In this document: positions 136-10,388 of the stretch, piece after piece
How positions within the stretch are numbered: position 1 is the first letter of the stretch
Layout: every line of letters begins with the position of its first letter
The notes under the pieces: generated by a model
Database searches by the model: none
The model's input: the letters and a program-made list of their open reading frames with translations, nothing else
Told to the model about the DNA's origin: nothing
Virus record (IMG/VR): IMGVR_UViG_3300034418_013122
Location: 1 to 27,038 of that record
Length of the DNA: 27,038 nt
Reading direction: 5' to 3' (one strand)
Origin: a virus
Program-made: the position numbers and the translations under genes

Positions 136-831
136 TTAAATATTGTGTCCTCCGTTATTAATCTTTAGACTGTCAAAAAATTCTTTACGTGCATTATTTG
201 TATCATCTCTAAATGCTCCTGATGCTTTAGTAGTAACCATTGCTGCACCTTGGTGTTTAACACCTCTACAAGATACACAATTGTGAGTACCTACAATAGT
301 AACAATTACACCTAAATTACCTTCAGTAATTTTATTTACAGCATTGTGGATTGCTGCTGTTAATTGTTCTTGGATAGCACCTCTACGACCAAATAATTCT
401 ACAATTCGGTTTAATTTAGATAAACCAATTACTTGCCCATCTTTACCTGCAATATAACCGATATGAACTACACCCCCAATTGTTTGGTGGTGGTGTGAAC
501 ACATTGAGGTAAGAGGAATATTACGCTCAATAATTACTCCATCGTAACCATCTGAAGGAAATGATGTAATAGGAGACATTGCTGTATATCGACCTTCCCA
601 TAAATCATTTACATATGCTTTTGCTACGCGGCGAGGTGTTTCCATTGAATTTGGATCATTTCTCCAATCACACTTTAAAGCATCAAGAAATTTACCGAAT
701 GCTTCTTCAGCTTCGTCAATCATTGATAGTTTCTCTTTTTCTGTGAATGGGAATCCTGGTGCAACCCCGTTTGCAAACCCTGTTTGTACTACTTCTAAAT
801 CTTCGTGTAGTTTTCTACGTTTGTTTTCCAT
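136..831 (-). CDS. folE: GTP cyclohydrolase I (FolE)
   Basis: FolE converts GTP to 7,8-dihydroneopterin triphosphate, the first step of both folate and 7-deazaguanine (queuosine/preQ0) synthesis. The 231-aa protein has the family zinc site: C111 and H114 within TSMCSHHHQTIGG, and C185 within GTHNCVSCRGVKHQGA. The C-terminal MVTTKASGAF block is also typical. Length is normal for the family with a modest N-terminal extension. It is the last complete gene of the 7-deazaguanine cluster and is the only one there with an additional promoter of its own (854-884), whose -35 lies inside the end of the preceding phosphoribosyltransferase gene. In this setting its product most likely feeds QueD rather than folate synthesis. 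Confidence 0.95.
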   Translation of the reverse strand: MENKRRKLHEDLEVVQTGFANGVAPGFPFTEKEKLSMIDEAEEAFGKFLDALKCDWRNDPNSMETPRRVAKAYVNDLWEGRYTAMSPITSFPSDGYDGVIIERNIPLTSMCSHHHQTIGGVVHIGYIAGKDGQVIGLSKLNRIVELFGRRGAIQEQLTAAIHNAVNKITEGNLGVIVTIVGTHNCVSCRGVKHQGAAMVTTKASGAFRDDTNNARKEFFDSLKINNGGHNI

Positions 832-853
832 GAATTATAATTTTTTACTTGAT

Positions 854-884
854 GTAATATACGAACCCTATTTAGAGAGCCCAA
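854..884 (-). promoter_or_regulatory. Bacteroidota-type promoter for folE
   Basis: On the minus strand TTG (884-882) is followed by exactly 20 bases and then TATATTAC (861-854), matching the host-type TTG/TAnnTTTG consensus. The spacer ends in GTTCG as in most other copies in the window. It lies 23 bases upstream of the folE ATG and partly inside the 3' end of the upstream gene. Confidence 0.75.
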
Positions 885-1375
885 ATTGATCTTAAATTTC
901 TATTATGTCCATTTTCATCATCCATACCATAACCAATAACCCACTCATCCTTAATAGTAAAAGCTTTATATAGTTTTTGGGTTGGAACTGGAGATGTTTC
1001 TCGGGTGATTAATGATACAATTGAAATTGAGGCTGGGTGTTTTACTTCTAGATATTCTATAACAGCAGCCATAGTATTTCCTGTATCATAGATATCATCT
1101 ACAATATAAACATGCTTACCTTTTATAGGTGTTTCGAGGTCTTTAGTGATTTGTATATCGCCTTGCTTGCGCTTTGCATACGATTTAACGCGCATAAAAT
1201 CACATTCCACCACAATCGGCATAGCACGCACTACATCGCTGTAAAACGCGTAACAACCATTAAGTAACCCCACCATAACCACAGGTGTTTTATCATCTCT
1301 ATGGTTATCTGATATTCTTTTACCTAAGATTTTGGTTTGGATATTAATATCCTCAGCTGTAATTAATTCTCTCAA
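872..1375 (-). CDS. HPRT-like purine phosphoribosyltransferase
   Basis: A 167-aa type I phosphoribosyltransferase close to hypoxanthine/guanine phosphoribosyltransferases. The PRPP-binding loop is clear as VYIVDDIYDTGNTM (about residues 89-102), and a VGLLNGCYAF block near residue 36 corresponds to the LKGG/PPi loop region. Such enzymes join a purine base to PRPP to give the nucleotide. The start is an unusual TTG at 1375 whose bases overlap the TGA of the nuclease gene (TTGA); an in-frame TAG lies just upstream and the next ATG is at residue 34, so TTG is the only start that keeps the fold. It may salvage guanine for GTP, or act on a deazaguanine base; the latter is speculation from context. 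Confidence 0.85.
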   Translation of the reverse strand: MRELITAEDINIQTKILGKRISDNHRDDKTPVVMVGLLNGCYAFYSDVVRAMPIVVECDFMRVKSYAKRKQGDIQITKDLETPIKGKHVYIVDDIYDTGNTMAAVIEYLEVKHPASISIVSLITRETSPVPTQKLYKAFTIKDEWVIGYGMDDENGHNRNLRSIWAL

Positions 1376-1992
1376 TTGATTCTAAAATAATTCCAATCTT
1401 TTCCTGCTACATCTTTATTAGGAAAAGTGAAAGTATAACTTTCATTATTAAAAGTTAAAGTTTTAGTAAACCCACTTGGAACTGTAGCCCCTGCTGGGAC
1501 AACAACTAGTGGTAATTCAAATAAAACTTCAACAAATACATCTACTTTGCCATAAATTTTAACCAAATCACGTTCAAATCTTTCTAATTCTTTCCAAGGG
1601 CCTCTATTTAATCCCTGGTGTTGAAGAGCACAATTTAGATAAGTAAACGTTAATTTTAAATCTTCTCTAGTACAATTAAAAGAAGCAGCAGGTGCTAAAT
1701 GACCTTTATCCCATACATTATTTTCATAATCTTCATCACTTGAGGTTTTTATTCCCCTAACTTCTCTAAAATTAATTCCTCCTCTTTCAACTTTACCATC
1801 AATACAGGTTACAGTATACCACAATTTAATAGGTTGTTCTAATTCTTCAGAATAAACAACTTTAAAGATATTATTTTCTATGGTTTTTACTCCAAGCTTA
1901 GGATATAAAATTGCTCCTAAATTTGATTCGACCTGCCCAAATAGAGGAAATGACAATATATAAGTTAATAATAAGATATTAAATTTTTTCAT
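1372..1992 (-). CDS. Secreted DNA/RNA non-specific endonuclease
   Basis: A 206-aa member of the Serratia/NucA-type nuclease family, which cuts DNA and RNA without sequence specificity using one Mg2+ ion. The active-site block is D95-K96-G97-H98 in WDKGHLAPAASF, a conservative change from the usual DRGH, with H98 the general base. The metal-binding block is GLNRGPWKELE, with N129 and E137 in the expected places. Residues 1-20 (MKKFNILLLTYILSFPLFGQ) form a signal peptide, so the enzyme should act in the periplasm or outside. It is translationally overlapped with the phosphoribosyltransferase gene downstream and sits inside the DNA-modification operon. Family assignment is firm; role during infection is unknown. 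Confidence 0.88.
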   Translation of the reverse strand: MKKFNILLLTYILSFPLFGQVESNLGAILYPKLGVKTIENNIFKVVYSEELEQPIKLWYTVTCIDGKVERGGINFREVRGIKTSSDEDYENNVWDKGHLAPAASFNCTREDLKLTFTYLNCALQHQGLNRGPWKELERFERDLVKIYGKVDVFVEVLFELPLVVVPAGATVPSGFTKTLTFNNESYTFTFPNKDVAGKDWNYFRIN

Positions 1993-2008
1993 TTTTTTAT
2001 ATTTTTAA

Positions 2009-2878
2009 TTAAACACATCTTTCAGTATTAAAGGCCATTATATGTGCTCTACCTGTAAATTTGTATCCTTTATCTCTACACATGTTCATTACTACTGGGT
2101 ATGATTCAAATAATGATTCCCTATCATCACCCGCAGGCATACACCATGTTTTAGATTTTAAATAACTAATGGTATCATATAAGCTTTGGGGATTGTAGTC
2201 AAAATTTTCCCACCCTAAATCTAACAATTTATTTGCTAGTTTTTTTATAAATTCTTCTACTTCAGGTAATACAGCCAAATCTTTATCTATAACCGGTTTA
2301 AGATGAAAATTATCGTGGAAATAAATCATTTTAGCAATGTTTTCAACATTCATTCTAAATTTATTATGTTGAATTACCATTTTTTCATCTACAACCTTTC
2401 CTTGAGGTGTAACAGCACCTACAACAGGAACACTATTTTTAAACTTAGGAGAAATTGATAATAAGCCAATAGGGTAATCTGTTTCTACAAAATGGGAACC
2501 TTCAGTTTCAATCGTAATGAAAATTTTTCTTTGATTAGCAAAATGAGTTAATTCATTTACTAAAGCAGCATGCATTGTTGGTGAACCTCCAGTAAGCATC
2601 ATTTCTTTAATATGGGGGTTTTTATCATACATTTTAATAATATCATTAAATGTATAAGTTCCTTTTTCAGGGTGGATTGAAGTATACCAACTATCACACC
2701 ATCCACCTTCACCAAAATAACATCTATGAGTGCAACCTGTAGTTCTAATTACAATTGTAGGATAACCCTGACGACTGCCTTCAGATTGAACAGCAGTATA
2801 TAATTCTAATACTGGAAGGGTTTTAGTATAATCTTCTATTCTATTCTTCATAAATTGAGGAATTATTATCATTTTCAA
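2009..2878 (-). CDS. queE: 7-carboxy-7-deazaguanine synthase (QueE)
   Basis: QueE is a radical-SAM enzyme that contracts 6-carboxy-tetrahydropterin to 7-carboxy-7-deazaguanine. Family landmarks are the N-terminal YTAVQSEGSRQGYPTIVIR block (substrate lid and first strand), the cluster motif at C49, C53 and C61, MLTGGSPTMH (in place of GGEP), and TIETEGS. The cysteine spacing is CX3CX7C rather than the usual CX3CX2C, so about five residues (FGEGG) are inserted in the cluster loop. At 289 aa it is longer than typical QueE (about 210-240). The frame opens at 2878, overlapping queD by 38 bases; the ATG at 2851 (residue 10) is an equally good or better start. Confidence 0.9.
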   Translation of the reverse strand: MKMIIIPQFMKNRIEDYTKTLPVLELYTAVQSEGSRQGYPTIVIRTTGCTHRCYFGEGGWCDSWYTSIHPEKGTYTFNDIIKMYDKNPHIKEMMLTGGSPTMHAALVNELTHFANQRKIFITIETEGSHFVETDYPIGLLSISPKFKNSVPVVGAVTPQGKVVDEKMVIQHNKFRMNVENIAKMIYFHDNFHLKPVIDKDLAVLPEVEEFIKKLANKLLDLGWENFDYNPQSLYDTISYLKSKTWCMPAGDDRESLFESYPVVMNMCRDKGYKFTGRAHIMAFNTERCV

Positions 2879-3317
2879 AACATTCTACTTTAATACACTT
2901 ACATCTCCCTGCATCAGTTTTAGATAAAACATCATTAAAATGTTCATATACTAATCTAGCACAAGATTCTGCTCCCATTTTTTCTAAAAAATGTACTTTA
3001 GCTAATCCTGATACCTGTAACATTTCAAACATATCTCTATAAGGATCATCAGCTTGGATTAAAGTTGTATGATCCCACATATGATTCATCCAATCTTTTA
3101 AACCATTACCATGAGGGGGAGTTTTAAATCCACCATAGTCAACAATCCAATTCATATCATCTAATTGTTTATCAATATTAGGTTCATTAGATGAAAACCA
3201 TACTTTAAATTTTAAAGCATATCCATGAAGCAATTGACAATGTGAGTGTTGTGCTTTCCATTGTCTAATTGCTACTGAGTAATTCTCAAATAATTTAGTT
3301 GAAATATATCTTGCCAT
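2841..3317 (-). CDS. queD: 6-carboxy-5,6,7,8-tetrahydropterin synthase (QueD)
   Basis: QueD turns dihydroneopterin triphosphate into 6-carboxy-tetrahydropterin, the QueE substrate. The 158-aa protein has the catalytic cysteine and zinc region in AQHSHCQLLHGYAL: C27 and H31 have the family spacing CxxxH, but the usual HGH is HGY, so the third zinc histidine is Y33, with extra histidines at H24 and H26 nearby. A downstream MWDHTTL block supplies the Asp/His of the active site, and ESCARLVYEHF matches the family helix. It begins on the stop codon of thioredoxin (TAATG) and overlaps queE, so the genes are translationally coupled. Position between QueC and QueE supports the call. Confidence 0.87.
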   Translation of the reverse strand: MARYISTKLFENYSVAIRQWKAQHSHCQLLHGYALKFKVWFSSNEPNIDKQLDDMNWIVDYGGFKTPPHGNGLKDWMNHMWDHTTLIQADDPYRDMFEMLQVSGLAKVHFLEKMGAESCARLVYEHFNDVLSKTDAGRCKCIKVECFENDNNSSIYEE

Positions 3318-3580
3318 TATTTACTTAAATTAAATTGATTAAAAGTATTAATATATCTTTGTTCAGTTTGAACTCCTGCCATTCTTGTATGTTCTTTATT
3401 ATTATCATCTATTAATACTACTGTAGGGATATTACGAATCCCAAATTGGGATACCAAATCATTATTAGTATCTACATCAATTTTTTGAATGTTAATTCCA
3501 CTATTTTTTACTCTTTCCATAATTGGTCCTAACATTTTACAAGGCCCACACCAACTAGCTGTAAAATAAAGATATTTCAT
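3317..3580 (-). CDS. Thioredoxin-like protein
   Basis: An 87-aa minimal thioredoxin fold. The redox motif CGPC is at residues 11-14 in TASWCGPCKMLGPIM, and the cis-proline loop is NIPTVVLIDD. It has no signal peptide and should be cytoplasmic. It would reduce disulfides in partner proteins; ribonucleotide reductase encoded in the same window (C565/C568 tail) is an obvious candidate partner, as in other phages that carry thioredoxin-like proteins. It sits in the 7-deazaguanine operon, overlapping the queD start by one base. It is shorter than cellular thioredoxins (about 105 aa), lacking part of the first strand and helix. Confidence 0.9.
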   Translation of the reverse strand: MKYLYFTASWCGPCKMLGPIMERVKNSGINIQKIDVDTNNDLVSQFGIRNIPTVVLIDDNNKEHTRMAGVQTEQRYINTFNQFNLSK

Positions 3581-3610
3581 ATTTATTATTTATTTAATTG
3601 TTTTTAATTT

Positions 3611-3790
3611 TTAAACTAATTCCTCTAAAATTCCTATTACCTCACTTAACACAAGAATAATTGTTGCAACTAACAAATCAAATGGAATAAATCCATACCC
3701 CAGGATTCTGACAGTTGATTTTATAAATGAAATTTTCTTGTGCCAATATTGATTGGGCATTGATTCGATATTTTTATTTTTTTTACTCAT
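3611..3790 (-). CDS. Small membrane protein (59 aa)
   Basis: An open frame of 59 codons fills the gap between queC and thioredoxin. ATG at 3790 overlaps the queC stop (ATGAGTAA), typical of the tight coupling in this operon. The first 28 residues are basic and polar (starts MSKKNKNIESMPNQYW); residues about 29-52 are hydrophobic and end in SEVIGILEELV, giving one membrane helix or a pair of short ones. No function is recognisable. Overlap with queC, absence of stops and the amphipathic layout make it a likely real gene. Confidence 0.65.
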   Translation of the reverse strand: MSKKNKNIESMPNQYWHKKISFIKSTVRILGYGFIPFDLLVATIILVLSEVIGILEELV

Positions 3791-4652
3791 GGTTATTTAA
3801 AACTTTAGTTACTTCTGTTACTACATGTTCCCAAGACACAGGACCAGTCTCATCAGCATATTCTACAGGATCAGGATGACCAAGTTTTAAAAATGCTTCT
3901 ACACGTTCCACACTAGATGCTGATTTATAGTCTGAATACCATTTGTAAGCATTAGTTTCTGGGCGATAGTAGATTTTAATAGGTTTGTAAGAAGTATTAG
4001 TACGTTTATAAACCTCATCAAAATCAATACCTAATTTTTCACATAATACTTCTCCATCTTGTAAGATAGTAAATTTATCTCCTTTAAGATAAGGTGTCCA
4101 ATAACTTACCATATCAGCCCCCCAATTCCCTTCTCTAAAAGCAGCATCATCTGCATCTCTAAATTCTTGTCTACAGTCAGGATAAATTGCATGATCACCT
4201 GCATGAATTCCTAAAGCAATGTCTGTTCTTTCTCCTGTTTTATTTGCTACCGATAAAGCAACTGCTTGGGTAATAGAAGCAAATATTTTATTTCTATTAG
4301 GTACTACTGTTGCTTTCATATTATCTTGCTCATAGTGTCCCTCAGGTACCTCATCACCACCTTCCACTAAAGCTGAATCTAATAAATCAACTAAACCATC
4401 TAGTTTAATTTGTTTATAGTTTATTTTACATCCTTTATAGCAATCATTTTTATCACAGTTATCATTTAAATAATCTATTAATGATTGAGCTCTTTGTAAT
4501 TCTACTCTATGTTTTTGACCATAGTCAAATGATAAAGCGGTTACTGTTTCATACTCATTTAGTGCTTTAAGCAACAACGTTGAGCTATCCATACCACCTG
4601 AGAGTGATACTACTACGTGTTTTCCTTTGTTAAAATCAAATTCTAATTGCAT
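3783..4652 (-). CDS. queC: 7-cyano-7-deazaguanine synthase-like (QueC)
   Basis: QueC uses ATP and ammonia to convert 7-carboxy-7-deazaguanine to preQ0. The 289-aa protein has the PP-loop SLSGGMDSSTLL (residues 16-27), an ALSFDYGQKH block, and the family signature ATVVPNRNKIF. The C-terminal region that normally carries a four-cysteine zinc site (SCY...CGxCxxCxxR) is recognisable as NTSYKP ... YKSASSVERVEAF, but every zinc cysteine is replaced (Ser/Tyr/Asp). Three other cysteines (C66, C71, C75) occur in an insertion absent from typical QueC. The protein is longer than usual (about 220-230 aa). It should still act on the deazaguanine pathway; whether it makes preQ0 or another derivative cannot be told. 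Confidence 0.88.
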   Translation of the reverse strand: MQLEFDFNKGKHVVVSLSGGMDSSTLLLKALNEYETVTALSFDYGQKHRVELQRAQSLIDYLNDNCDKNDCYKGCKINYKQIKLDGLVDLLDSALVEGGDEVPEGHYEQDNMKATVVPNRNKIFASITQAVALSVANKTGERTDIALGIHAGDHAIYPDCRQEFRDADDAAFREGNWGADMVSYWTPYLKGDKFTILQDGEVLCEKLGIDFDEVYKRTNTSYKPIKIYYRPETNAYKWYSDYKSASSVERVEAFLKLGHPDPVEYADETGPVSWEHVVTEVTKVLNNHE

Positions 4653-4675: not shown

Positions 4676-4705
4676 CAGGTATTATTAAGCGTATAGGCTT
4701 ACGCT
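4676..4705 (-). other. Hairpin overlapping a stop codon upstream of queC
   Basis: On the minus strand the sequence AGCGTAAGCCTATACGCT can fold as AGCGTA/TACGCT with a six-base loop. It covers the stop codon of the 165-aa gene and ends about 35 bases before the queC ATG. It lacks a T-tract, so it is more likely an mRNA structure or processing/attenuation point than a strong terminator. It does not resemble a preQ1 riboswitch. Confidence 0.35.
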
Positions 4706-5196
4706 ATGTTTAATTTTTTTTCTAATCTTTCAAACTCAGGTTCGATAATATCATCCCAAAAATATTCATAATCATCTTCATCTTCATCTATTACCGTTTC
4801 CAATTCTAGGTATTGACCTGCGTCTGTAATCTTAAGTACACCAATAGGATCATATGCTTCATCCCAGTAGCGTGCTGTGAATATAATATCAGGATCTATA
4901 ACAGCCAACTGACGATGCATTTCTTTTAACATATCTGAAGGAGGATAATTAGCTGATTCTAGACCAAATTCATATGATGTTTCATCATCCCAAAAGATTT
5001 CATATTGAGAAATCCATTTAGAACCTACCTTATCGATAAACAATTCAGCATCAGCTCCAAATACATCTACAATGTGTGGGTTTTCTTCTTCATTTGGGTA
5101 TTTTCCATCATGACAACTTTCATACTTTTCTTTAAAATATGAGATTGCTTCTTTTGATCCTTGGATCTTAACGTCTGTTCTACAAGTATTTGCCAT
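4699..5196 (-). CDS. Acidic protein, possibly YubB/Api92-like
   Basis: A 165-aa protein encoded between the DpdA-like gene and queC, with its start overlapping the DpdA stop region. The N-terminal MANTCRTDVKIQGS and the later ESANYPPSDMLKEM resemble the ferredoxin-like domain of phage/plasmid Api92/YubB-type proteins (MANWC...; W/N-YPP motifs), but I am only moderately sure. The C-terminal third is very acidic (DEDEDDYEYFWDDIIEPEFE). It has no signal peptide or membrane segment. Being embedded in the modification operon suggests a role there or in DNA mimicry/anti-restriction, which is inference only. Confidence 0.7.
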   Translation of the reverse strand: MANTCRTDVKIQGSKEAISYFKEKYESCHDGKYPNEEENPHIVDVFGADAELFIDKVGSKWISQYEIFWDDETSYEFGLESANYPPSDMLKEMHRQLAVIDPDIIFTARYWDEAYDPIGVLKITDAGQYLELETVIDEDEDDYEYFWDDIIEPEFERLEKKLNIA

Positions 5197-5972
5197 TATT
5201 TTATAAATTCTTTAAATTTATTTACATTATACATTACAATATCCCAATTTTTTTCATCACCCACAAATTTATCTACTTTGTGAGGTAATTTATCAGTTAA
5301 TCCATAATCCTCATATTTAACCCCTGCTAAACCATGAATTACAGGATTTGAAGTATCAATAGTTTCTATAAAAGGCATATTTTTATACCAAGCAAATTCT
5401 TGGGGGATGTTGCAACCTAATAAATGAACTCTATCACTTTTTTCAATTAATCCTCTTTCATAAAAATCTTTAACAGTATTGTAACGACCATAAGCTTTGG
5501 TTACATAATCATTTTCCATTTTTTCAGCTTGATCTAAATACCAACTAGCTCCATATGAAAAAGCAATTTTTTTATAACCTTGCATTTTTAGAATGTTATA
5601 ACATTCCCATGCTTCTTCAACATTATTAGCTTGCACTACAGCAACGGGGGTGGTTCCTTCAGGATATTGAAGATTTGACCATAATTTTGCGGTAACTAAC
5701 GTTTTATTTTTATCCTGCCAATAATCAGGAACAATAAATTCATTAGGTTTAAAATAATTTAACCAGTAGGATAATCGTTTAGAATCATAAGGAGTACCTA
5801 ACTCATGAAGGGAATTATCCATGATGATATATCTCCCCAATTCTTTAGATTTTTGAAAGAAATTAAAATATTCTTTACTTTCATCCAGAAGGTGAGGTAG
5901 ACAATAATCATAATCATTAAAAGCTCTACTTTTTTCTAAAAAGGGAATAGGTACTTCGTGACTTACTTTCAT
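5196..5972 (-). CDS. dpdA: DpdA-like DNA/tRNA-guanine transglycosylase
   Basis: A 258-aa protein with the TIM-barrel pattern of the tRNA-guanine transglycosylase superfamily, as in phage DpdA proteins that swap guanine in DNA for a 7-deazaguanine. Landmarks: GRYIIMDNSLHELG with D52 in the place of the DSGG aspartate; an EFIVPDYWQDKNKT strand-loop; PVAVVQANNVEEAW; YKKIAFSYG; HLLGCNIPQEF; and ETIDTSNPVIHGL with D206 as candidate nucleophile. The typical zinc domain of bacterial TGT is absent, as in DpdA. Genomic linkage to folE, queD, queE and queC strongly supports DNA rather than tRNA as the substrate. Subfamily cannot be decided by eye. Confidence 0.82.
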   Translation of the reverse strand: MKVSHEVPIPFLEKSRAFNDYDYCLPHLLDESKEYFNFFQKSKELGRYIIMDNSLHELGTPYDSKRLSYWLNYFKPNEFIVPDYWQDKNKTLVTAKLWSNLQYPEGTTPVAVVQANNVEEAWECYNILKMQGYKKIAFSYGASWYLDQAEKMENDYVTKAYGRYNTVKDFYERGLIEKSDRVHLLGCNIPQEFAWYKNMPFIETIDTSNPVIHGLAGVKYEDYGLTDKLPHKVDKFVGDEKNWDIVMYNVNKFKEFIK

Positions 5973-8860: not shown

Positions 8861-9298
8861 TTACCTATAAACTTTAAAAGGAGCTGTTCGAGCTTTATAT
8901 CCTTCATAATCCTTTTTAAATTCTTCTAAACGTGGTTCAATATCATCTGATTTGATAATCCAAAATTGGGCGCCTACAAGTTTTGCTTTTTCAATTTCTT
9001 GTTCGTCTTGAGAAGATGAAATAATACCTACAACACAGCCATTACCATATTCATGATTAATTTTTCTAATCATTTCAATTCCATCAAATGAAGAACCTAT
9101 AATATTTAAATCTACAAATACACATTCAGGTTTTTCATGGTTTGGATCATCTGGAAACCATTTTTTAAACATTTCAGCAGCTTTATCACTACTATCTAAA
9201 GCTTCAATTGAAAGAGCCATATCTAGTAAAGAACATGCATCCTCAAATACTAGATGAAATAAATTTTCATCATCAATCAACATTAAAGTATCAATCAT
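8861..9298 (-). CDS. Stand-alone response regulator receiver
   Basis: A 145-aa CheY-type receiver domain with no output domain. The acidic pair is D9-D10 (LMLIDDEN), the phosphoacceptor is D63 (VFVDLNIIGSSFDGIEMI), the switch hydroxyl is S94-S96 (VGIISSS), and the conserved lysine is K116 (FWIIKSDD). Its start overlaps the histidine-kinase stop by 8 bases, the classical arrangement of a cognate pair. With no DNA-binding domain it must act through protein contacts, for example with the coiled-coil membrane protein encoded directly downstream. Phage-encoded receivers are uncommon. Confidence 0.9.
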   Translation of the reverse strand: MIDTLMLIDDENLFHLVFEDACSLLDMALSIEALDSSDKAAEMFKKWFPDDPNHEKPECVFVDLNIIGSSFDGIEMIRKINHEYGNGCVVGIISSSQDEQEIEKAKLVGAQFWIIKSDDIEPRLEEFKKDYEGYKARTAPFKVYR

Positions 9299-10388
9299 TG
9301 TTTCCTATCTTTATTTTTATTTTTGTTCCTACTACTGTTTTAAGGTGAGAGGGAATCCATTGAACAAATAATTTTGGTGTATTCCCTCCTCGTTTTATTT
9401 GAAGAAATCCTTTATATTCGTTTTTCTTTGCTTCATCTTCAACCCGCTCTCTATTATAAATATAACTATTAGGTTGCCAGGCAATTTTTTCTTCTAATTT
9501 ATCAAGTTCTTGTTTTAAAAATTCTTCATTTTTATAAACTTTTTCTACAAAAATTTCAAACCCATGTTCTTCTATAATAGCATTACAAATATTTAATCCT
9601 AAACCAGAACCACTTTCTTTTTGTCCTTCTTTTCTAACATAAGGTTTAGATAATTCTTCAAAATCCTTTTGATTAATTCCTCTACCATTGTCTTGAATAA
9701 CAATAAAATTTTCTTCAGAATATAATTTAACCCATTTTGTTGGTGAGTCATTATATTTTAGCCCATTTCTAATTAAGTTATCAATTGCAGTGCAAAAAAG
9801 TGGTTCGTTTACTTCTAATTCTGTAGGTAAATTATCATCTAAAAGAACTTGATTTTTATATGCAGTTAAGCGTAAGTAATCCTCTAATATATTTTTAATA
9901 TTATGAGGTTGTTTACTCATTTGTACATTTTGTTTTACTAAATTAGTAAATTCATATACCCCACTATATACTTTTTGAGCATGATACAATCCATCTTCAA
10001 TTAACTGAAGAGGTGCTTGTATTTTTAAATCTTGTATTTGTTGTTCTGATATTCTTCTTTTTAAAGATTTAATACCTCGAGGTAAATAGGTATTAATTCC
10101 AGAATGCATATCATGCCTAATAATTTTAGCTGCGTGTTCTAAGAATATATTTTTAGCAAATAAATCTTCTTTGATTTTTTCTTTATTTTGTATAAATTCA
10201 TATACTACTTTAAAGAATGGTGGCATAAAGAATACAACACAACCCCAACCAAATTTAGCTAAAAAGAGTGTAGGTTCACATACCCCAAATACAATACAGG
10301 TTTGTACTGTAAAGAAGGTCATCATAATTAAACCTGCAACTATTAGGGAGATTTTGGAATTTATAGATATTCCATCTAGAGCTTTCAT
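9291..10388 (-). CDS. Membrane histidine kinase
   Basis: A 365-aa sensor kinase. Two membrane helices (about 11-35 and 39-63) are followed by a phosphoacceptor helix IIRHDMHSGINTYLPRG (H92 candidate) and a GHKL ATPase domain: N-box DNLIRNGLKYN (203-213), G1 box QDNGRGI (232-238; D233) and G2 box GSGLGL (260-265). Between the G2 box and the last strands (GTKIKIKI) is an unusual charged insertion of about 65 residues (283-346). There is almost no extracytoplasmic loop, so sensing is probably of the membrane itself or of partner membrane proteins. It partners with the overlapping receiver gene and lies immediately downstream of the holin-like genes. Confidence 0.9.
   Translation of the reverse strand: MKALDGISINSKISLIVAGLIMMTFFTVQTCIVFGVCEPTLFLAKFGWGCVVFFMPPFFKVVYEFIQNKEKIKEDLFAKNIFLEHAAKIIRHDMHSGINTYLPRGIKSLKRRISEQQIQDLKIQAPLQLIEDGLYHAQKVYSGVYEFTNLVKQNVQMSKQPHNIKNILEDYLRLTAYKNQVLLDDNLPTELEVNEPLFCTAIDNLIRNGLKYNDSPTKWVKLYSEENFIVIQDNGRGINQKDFEELSKPYVRKEGQKESGSGLGLNICNAIIEEHGFEIFVEKVYKNEEFLKQELDKLEEKIAWQPNSYIYNRERVEDEAKKNEYKGFLQIKRGGNTPKLFVQWIPSHLKTVVGTKIKIKIGNND

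Follow-up and report, generated by a model that had tools for sequence, protein, structure and literature searches.

A phage QueC without its zinc-binding cysteines in a 7-deazaguanine DNA-modification cluster

Introduction

The window analysed here (27,038 nucleotides in full) is a 27-kb phage record from IMG/VR, and it encodes a QueC variant that has lost its zinc site and is not a canonical QueC. We consider it probable that this protein is a working, zinc-independent preQ0 synthase that has abandoned the C-terminal zinc knuckle and feeds a DpdA-type DNA guanine transglycosylase. From sequence, conservation, phylogeny, gene context and predicted fold we infer its QueC activity, its product, its metal-free state and a structural rather than catalytic role for zinc; it is the zinc that looks replaceable, not the chemistry that looks new. 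The literature that we searched, which was incomplete for the modified bases of such phages, contained no report of a zinc-less QueC.

The gene cluster and its QueC

The minus strand of the window carries a 7-deazaguanine DNA-modification cluster (DpdA-like, QueC, QueD, QueE and FolE) with thioredoxin, nuclease and HGPRT-like proteins interspersed among its genes; folE, queD and queE are linked to queC, all inside 136-4652. Neither RNA families nor tRNAs were found within the window. The cluster genes are as follows.

136..831, minus strand: FolE, GTP cyclohydrolase I (Pfam 4.7e-42)
872..1375, minus strand: HGPRT-like phosphoribosyltransferase, inside the cluster (NCBIfam HGPRTase 2.3e-42, slightly below the cut-off)
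2009..2878, minus strand: QueE radical SAM enzyme (PHROG 2076 QueE-like, 1.5e-44)
2841..3317, minus strand: QueD (PTPS Pfam 2.5e-11; PHROG 2389 QueD-like)
3783..4652, minus strand: zinc-site-less QueC (PF06508), 289 aa (Pfam E 4.5e-36; PHROG 1550 QueC-like, E 1.7e-40)
5196..5972, minus strand: DpdA-like DNA guanine transglycosylase (identity to the CP220 protein and immuto DpdA)

The nearest annotated phage is Flavobacterium phage vB_FspM_immuto_2-6A, whose QueC (YP_010114440.1) is 77% identical to that of the window and likewise has S/D/S/S at the former zinc positions. The immuto phage differs from the window in having QueF and a formyltransferase and in its DpdA, which is only 34% identical. 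Its cluster also holds a phosphoribosyltransferase gene, adjoining FolE (L138, 3932-4327), and its QueE shares with the window QueE (2009-2878, minus strand) a Cx3Cx7C cluster motif, CTHRCYFGEGGWC in the window, in place of Cx3Cx2C. The interval between the window DpdA and QueC genes encodes a 165-aa protein (4699-5196, minus strand) that matched nothing in Pfam, PHROG or NCBIfam. Further along, at 8861-10388 (minus strand), lies a phage-encoded two-component pair, a response regulator gene (PF00072) next to one for a histidine-kinase ATPase (PF02518).

The QueC reading frame (3783-4652, minus strand) encodes 289 residues with no internal stops, and the protein scores 124.8 bits against PF06508, for which the gathering score is 22. 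It falls under the NCBIfam TIGR00364 equivalog cut-off (120 versus 150.3 bits), a point of difference from canonical QueC; by the same model the QueC proteins of the window, MGII and Pirellulaceae together score 120-128 bits. The first-pass annotation had put the excess length at about 60 residues, and this agrees with a median of ~222 for canonical QueC (PMC13329287). Against the canonical enzymes (B. subtilis 3BL5, E. coli; PF06508 cluster 1, PMC13329287) the window protein has some 65 extra residues, with a predicted hairpin and a helix at the C-terminus, and its four zinc cysteines are replaced; it has in common with them the fold, SGGxDS, YxQxHxxE, VPxRN, YPDC, the essential tyrosine and lysine, and the operon partners. 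The earlier reading of the PP-loop and VPNRN signatures as intact was borne out, and the relevant features of the protein are these.

4584..4601, minus strand: PP-loop SGGMDS, residues 18-23, intact
4500..4523, minus strand: YGQKHRVE (YxQxHxxE motif), residues 44-51, intact
4428..4457, minus strand: insertion with C66, C71 and C75, residues 66-75, a variable-length loop
4290..4304, minus strand: VPNRN, residues 117-121, intact
4173..4184, minus strand: YPDC substrate motif, residues 157-160, intact
3933..3980, minus strand: beta-hairpin region predicted by AlphaFold2, strands 225-230 and 235-240, between former ligands 1 and 2
3903..3992, minus strand: former zinc site, residues 221-250 (S221, Y222 ... 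D241, S244, S247, R250), S/D/S/S in relatives

In E. coli QueC the mutants Y35A, R99A, Y131A and Y189A are inactive and Y131F leaves partial activity (PMC13329287). Counterparts of all four of these residues (Y35, in the YxQxHxxE motif, R99, in VPxRN, Y131 and Y189) were found in the window protein, as was the conserved lysine (K193). Both C160 of YPDC and Y222, the equivalent of Y189, are kept in 63 of 63 distinct proteins from the best 80 of 379 relatives.

The former zinc site

The C-terminal zinc motif of QueC has been treated as a family hallmark and serves to identify members. The canonical SCY...CGxCxxCVER aligns to TSY...DYKSASSVER in the window protein, which lacks the C(x)8CxxCxxC motif and carries S221, D241, S244 and S247 at the positions of the four cysteines. 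Loss of the zinc cysteines, as first claimed, thus stands on a correctly aligned C-terminus anchored by TSY and VER. A misalignment there can be set aside, given these two anchors and the before-and-after forms of the site in a second zinc-less clade (see below), for instance HTCYAGEYPPCGKCHACVLRA versus its counterpart in the other state.

A search for the window family, from which the best 80 of 379 relatives were taken, gave 82 alignment rows, all of them with S/D/S/S, as have 63 of 63 distinct proteins, window included, in the same set. Synonymous change exceeds amino-acid change in pairs of window-family QueC: of six pairs, five have a dN/dS of about 0.15-0.25, and the closest pair has 0.44. 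A canonical-type QueC on a viral contig (L261) has one zinc cysteine changed to aspartate (CCCD), a possible intermediate state.

The first-pass annotation had pointed to C66, C71 and C75 as a potential new metal site. The three cysteines are indeed present in an insertion; their proposed role is not upheld, since they recur in only 9, 5 and 9, respectively, of 63 proteins from the best 80 of 379 relatives, and such unconserved residues provide no common metal site. Nor do they form a LarE-type three-cysteine [4Fe-4S] cluster, as they are unconserved and the QueC motifs are present.

Predicted structure

An AlphaFold2 model of the window QueC, built on a 45-sequence alignment, gives a confident QueC fold (pLDDT 92.2, pTM 0.90). 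It matches Cap9 with Z 19.9 (2.0 A over 178 residues), B. subtilis QueC (3BL5) with Z 19.2 (2.5 A over 187) and QatC with Z 18.1; other PP-loop enzymes reach Z 12.9 and below. The predicted hairpin region has a pLDDT of about 96-97. Among relatives from the best 80 of 379, the spacing from Y222 to D241 ranges over 8-40 residues, so the hairpin itself is probably non-essential.

Repeated loss of the zinc site

In a tree of 86 QueC proteins, from which the zinc-site columns were left out, the window family, MGII and Pirellulaceae form one clade (100/95) that is entirely zinc-less. The QueC of phages of the Rhizobium/Achromobacter type, also zinc-less, forms a separate clade (100/97) adjoining CAjan-type QueC (100/99). 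Constraining the zinc-less forms together costs 85.9 log units (p-AU 0.0006), which rules out a single origin, and the zinc-less state arose at least twice.

Like the window protein, the QueC of Rhizobium phage RHEph05 and Achromobacter phage ART has lost the four zinc cysteines and kept its catalytic motifs; unlike it, these proteins have a clade of their own, a different motif, no predicted hairpin and zinc-bearing members among them. The zinc-less RHEph05-type protein (L095) gives a model as confident as that of the window QueC, with a pLDDT of 93.1 and Z 21.8 to B. subtilis QueC. The zinc-bearing members, L123 and L129, lie inside the second zinc-less clade with all four cysteines in near-identical surrounding sequence, and the neighbours of L123 make up the usual QueC, QueD, QueE and FolE set. 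Three changes are needed on the tree within this clade, and the nesting of L123 and L129 implies repeated loss, regain or recombination.

Zinc-less QueC in MGII and Pirellulaceae

The genome-contig scan, and a viral scan with canonical QueC, each took the best 80 loci, and prevalence figures from them are not unbiased. Within the best 80 genome loci, the best cellular matches were from MGII/Poseidoniales and two Pirellulaceae, at 43-47% identity over the full length; the six of these with an intact C-terminus are zinc-less, and 73 other loci of the 80 are CCCC. For the MGII order, QueC of the zinc-less clade was found in 55 of 60 sampled genomes (55-100% identity), the zinc-less motif was seen in all 30 loci fetched, and nine further loci from a phylum search likewise start TSYxPD; other members of the phylum contributed 12 QueC loci with the normal SCY...CGxCDSC. 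Three Pirellulales genomes have zinc-less QueC of the same clade. Two MGII contigs (L161, 5992-7083, and L165) encode a zinc-less QueC that continues at its C-terminus into an MsrB methionine sulfoxide reductase domain, the MsrB domain of L161 matching NCBIfam at 1.9e-41.

These cellular proteins share with the window QueC their zinc-less state and their clade. They differ in being chromosomal, in probably serving tRNA archaeosine or queuosine, and in their former ligand positions, S/(S,H,D)/(S,T)/D as against S/D/S/S. In seven MGII/Pirellulaceae genomes (G030-G036), which, like the others of these groups, are draft MAGs, the zinc-less QueC is the sole strong PF06508 match. TGT (tRNA-guanine transglycosylase) was found in five of these seven, QueF in both Pirellulaceae (G033 and G034), and QueA in the same two and in the third Pirellulales genome, G203; on contig L161, FolE, QueE, QueC-MsrB and QueD are consecutive. 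We infer archaeosine or queuosine in MGII and Pirellulaceae from the genes, and if these pathways work, the zinc-less QueC would yield preQ0.

DpdA, QueF and the product of the pathway

The product of 5196-5972 appears to be a DpdA-like guanine transglycosylase, with a putative role in DNA guanine exchange. It is homologous to a protein annotated as DpdA in a phage genome, that of immuto, to which it is 34% identical, and it shares 36% identity with a Campylobacter CP220 protein. Among 15 window-family records, in which QueF and the formyltransferase were tested together, QueF occurs in six, namely immuto and five IMG/VR records, and a PurN-like formyltransferase occurs in exactly these six. 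The QueF of immuto aligns with solved NADPH-dependent preQ0 reductases (1e-47) and keeps the SNC, QPDW and FHE regions (catalytic Cys/Asp/His). No QueF was found in the 27 kb of the window or in its relatives G001-G003 of about 150-166 kb.

The DpdA proteins of the six QueF-bearing records are about 35% identical to window DpdA and form their own group; those of the QueF-less records are mostly 46-51% identical to it, the others 38-39%. The end of the pathway thus varies while QueC is unchanged, which fits preQ0 as the common product, although host QueC could be the source of preQ0 for the phage QueF. DpdA3, a dPreQ1 formyltransferase named DpdN and formylated dPreQ1 were reportedly described by Cui et al. 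in 2023. For the window phage, dPreQ0 would be our first guess at the final base, and dADG is possible.

Discussion

In the scheme that we favour, FolE, QueD, QueE, QueC and DpdA would constitute a phage 7-deazaguanine DNA-modification pathway, in which QueC most likely converts CDG to preQ0 in two ATP-dependent steps by means of its intact PP-loop, YxQxHxxE, VPxRN, YPDC and SxY residues. That the window QueC probably makes preQ0 from CDG is suggested, indirectly for its QueF-less sub-lineage, by the co-occurrence of its relatives with QueF, TGT and QueA. The zinc may have been replaced structurally by the enlarged region ahead of the SxY motif together with the beta-hairpin, variable in length, that separates the first two former ligands, with conserved serine and aspartate residues occupying the four former ligand positions. 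DpdA would then exchange guanine in the phage DNA for the deazaguanine base, which in the sister phages could be extended by QueF and the formyltransferase.

The first-pass annotation had suggested that the enzyme might stop at another intermediate. Loss of zinc does not imply this, since the same zinc-less QueC co-occurs with the preQ0-dependent QueF, since seven MGII/Pirellulaceae genomes have no other strong match to QueC, and since Campylobacter phages CP20 and CP21, which belong to the dADG genus, keep all four zinc cysteines; it is thus not supported that zinc loss marks enzymes whose end product is ADG. For the QueF-less sub-lineage the suggestion survives as an unlikely alternative, by which QueC would stop at, or mainly release, ADG and DpdA would insert ADG to give dADG DNA, as in CP220. 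The window and its relatives are QueF-less and their DpdA groups apart from that of the QueF-positive records, and besides immuto the nearest characterised-phage relatives of window DpdA are those of the Campylobacter Firehammerviruses, for which 100% dADG was reported, the DNA of CP220 and CPt10 being fully so modified (PMC8306585). However, the zinc state does not track with ADG, the same zinc-less QueC is present in the QueF-bearing phages, its catalytic motifs match those of enzymes that make preQ0, and CP220 DpdA groups with the QueF-positive DpdAs and not with window DpdA, in a tree with long branches and a midpoint root. That the zinc-less QueC of QueF-less, window-type phages is an amide-forming enzyme halted halfway, releasing ADG for insertion by a dedicated DpdA, we regard as quite unlikely.

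Alternatively, zinc or another metal might still be bound, via D241 and its neighbours or via C66, C71 and C75. Members of the window family (best 80 of 379 relatives) all have aspartate at one of the former ligand positions, and MGII and Pirellulaceae have aspartate, with histidine as well in two Pirellulaceae, at others; yet no plausible ligand position is held clade-wide (S-D-S-S versus S-S-S-D or S-H-T-D), the three insertion cysteines are missing from most relatives, and serine and threonine are poor zinc ligands, all of which makes residual metal binding very unlikely. The predicted fold, which fits Cap9 and QueC equally (Z 19.9 and 19.2), could be taken to mean that the window protein has been repurposed in the manner of Cap9 or QatC to attach a deazaguanine to protein. 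This we find barely credible, as the gene sits in a FolE/QueD/QueE/DpdA cluster; QatA/QatD- or CD-NTase-like genes are absent among the scanned neighbours, and the neighbours identified, with no CD-NTase or QatA/QatB/QatD beside QueC, are deazaguanine and phage genes. Cap9 and QatC share the core fold with the window QueC and differ from it in protein modification (proposed for QatC), in their other neighbours and in keeping a zinc site, with all four cysteines in Cap9. Loss of a hallmark motif might also signal a decaying or mis-sequenced gene, an explanation with practically no chance, given that 82 rows carry identical replacements, selection is purifying, the frames are open and the model is confident.

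The zinc site of QueC has been dispensed with in a large phage family, in one group of abundant marine archaea and in some planctomycetes. A second phage clade represents a separate loss, with zinc-bearing members still within it, and comparison of such natural pairs of zinc and zinc-less enzymes offers a direct test of whether the zinc is structural or catalytic. Strict cut-offs in annotation models leave the QueC of the zinc-less organisms unrecognised. We speculate that a zinc-free QueC may benefit phages that make much of the enzyme without drawing on zinc.
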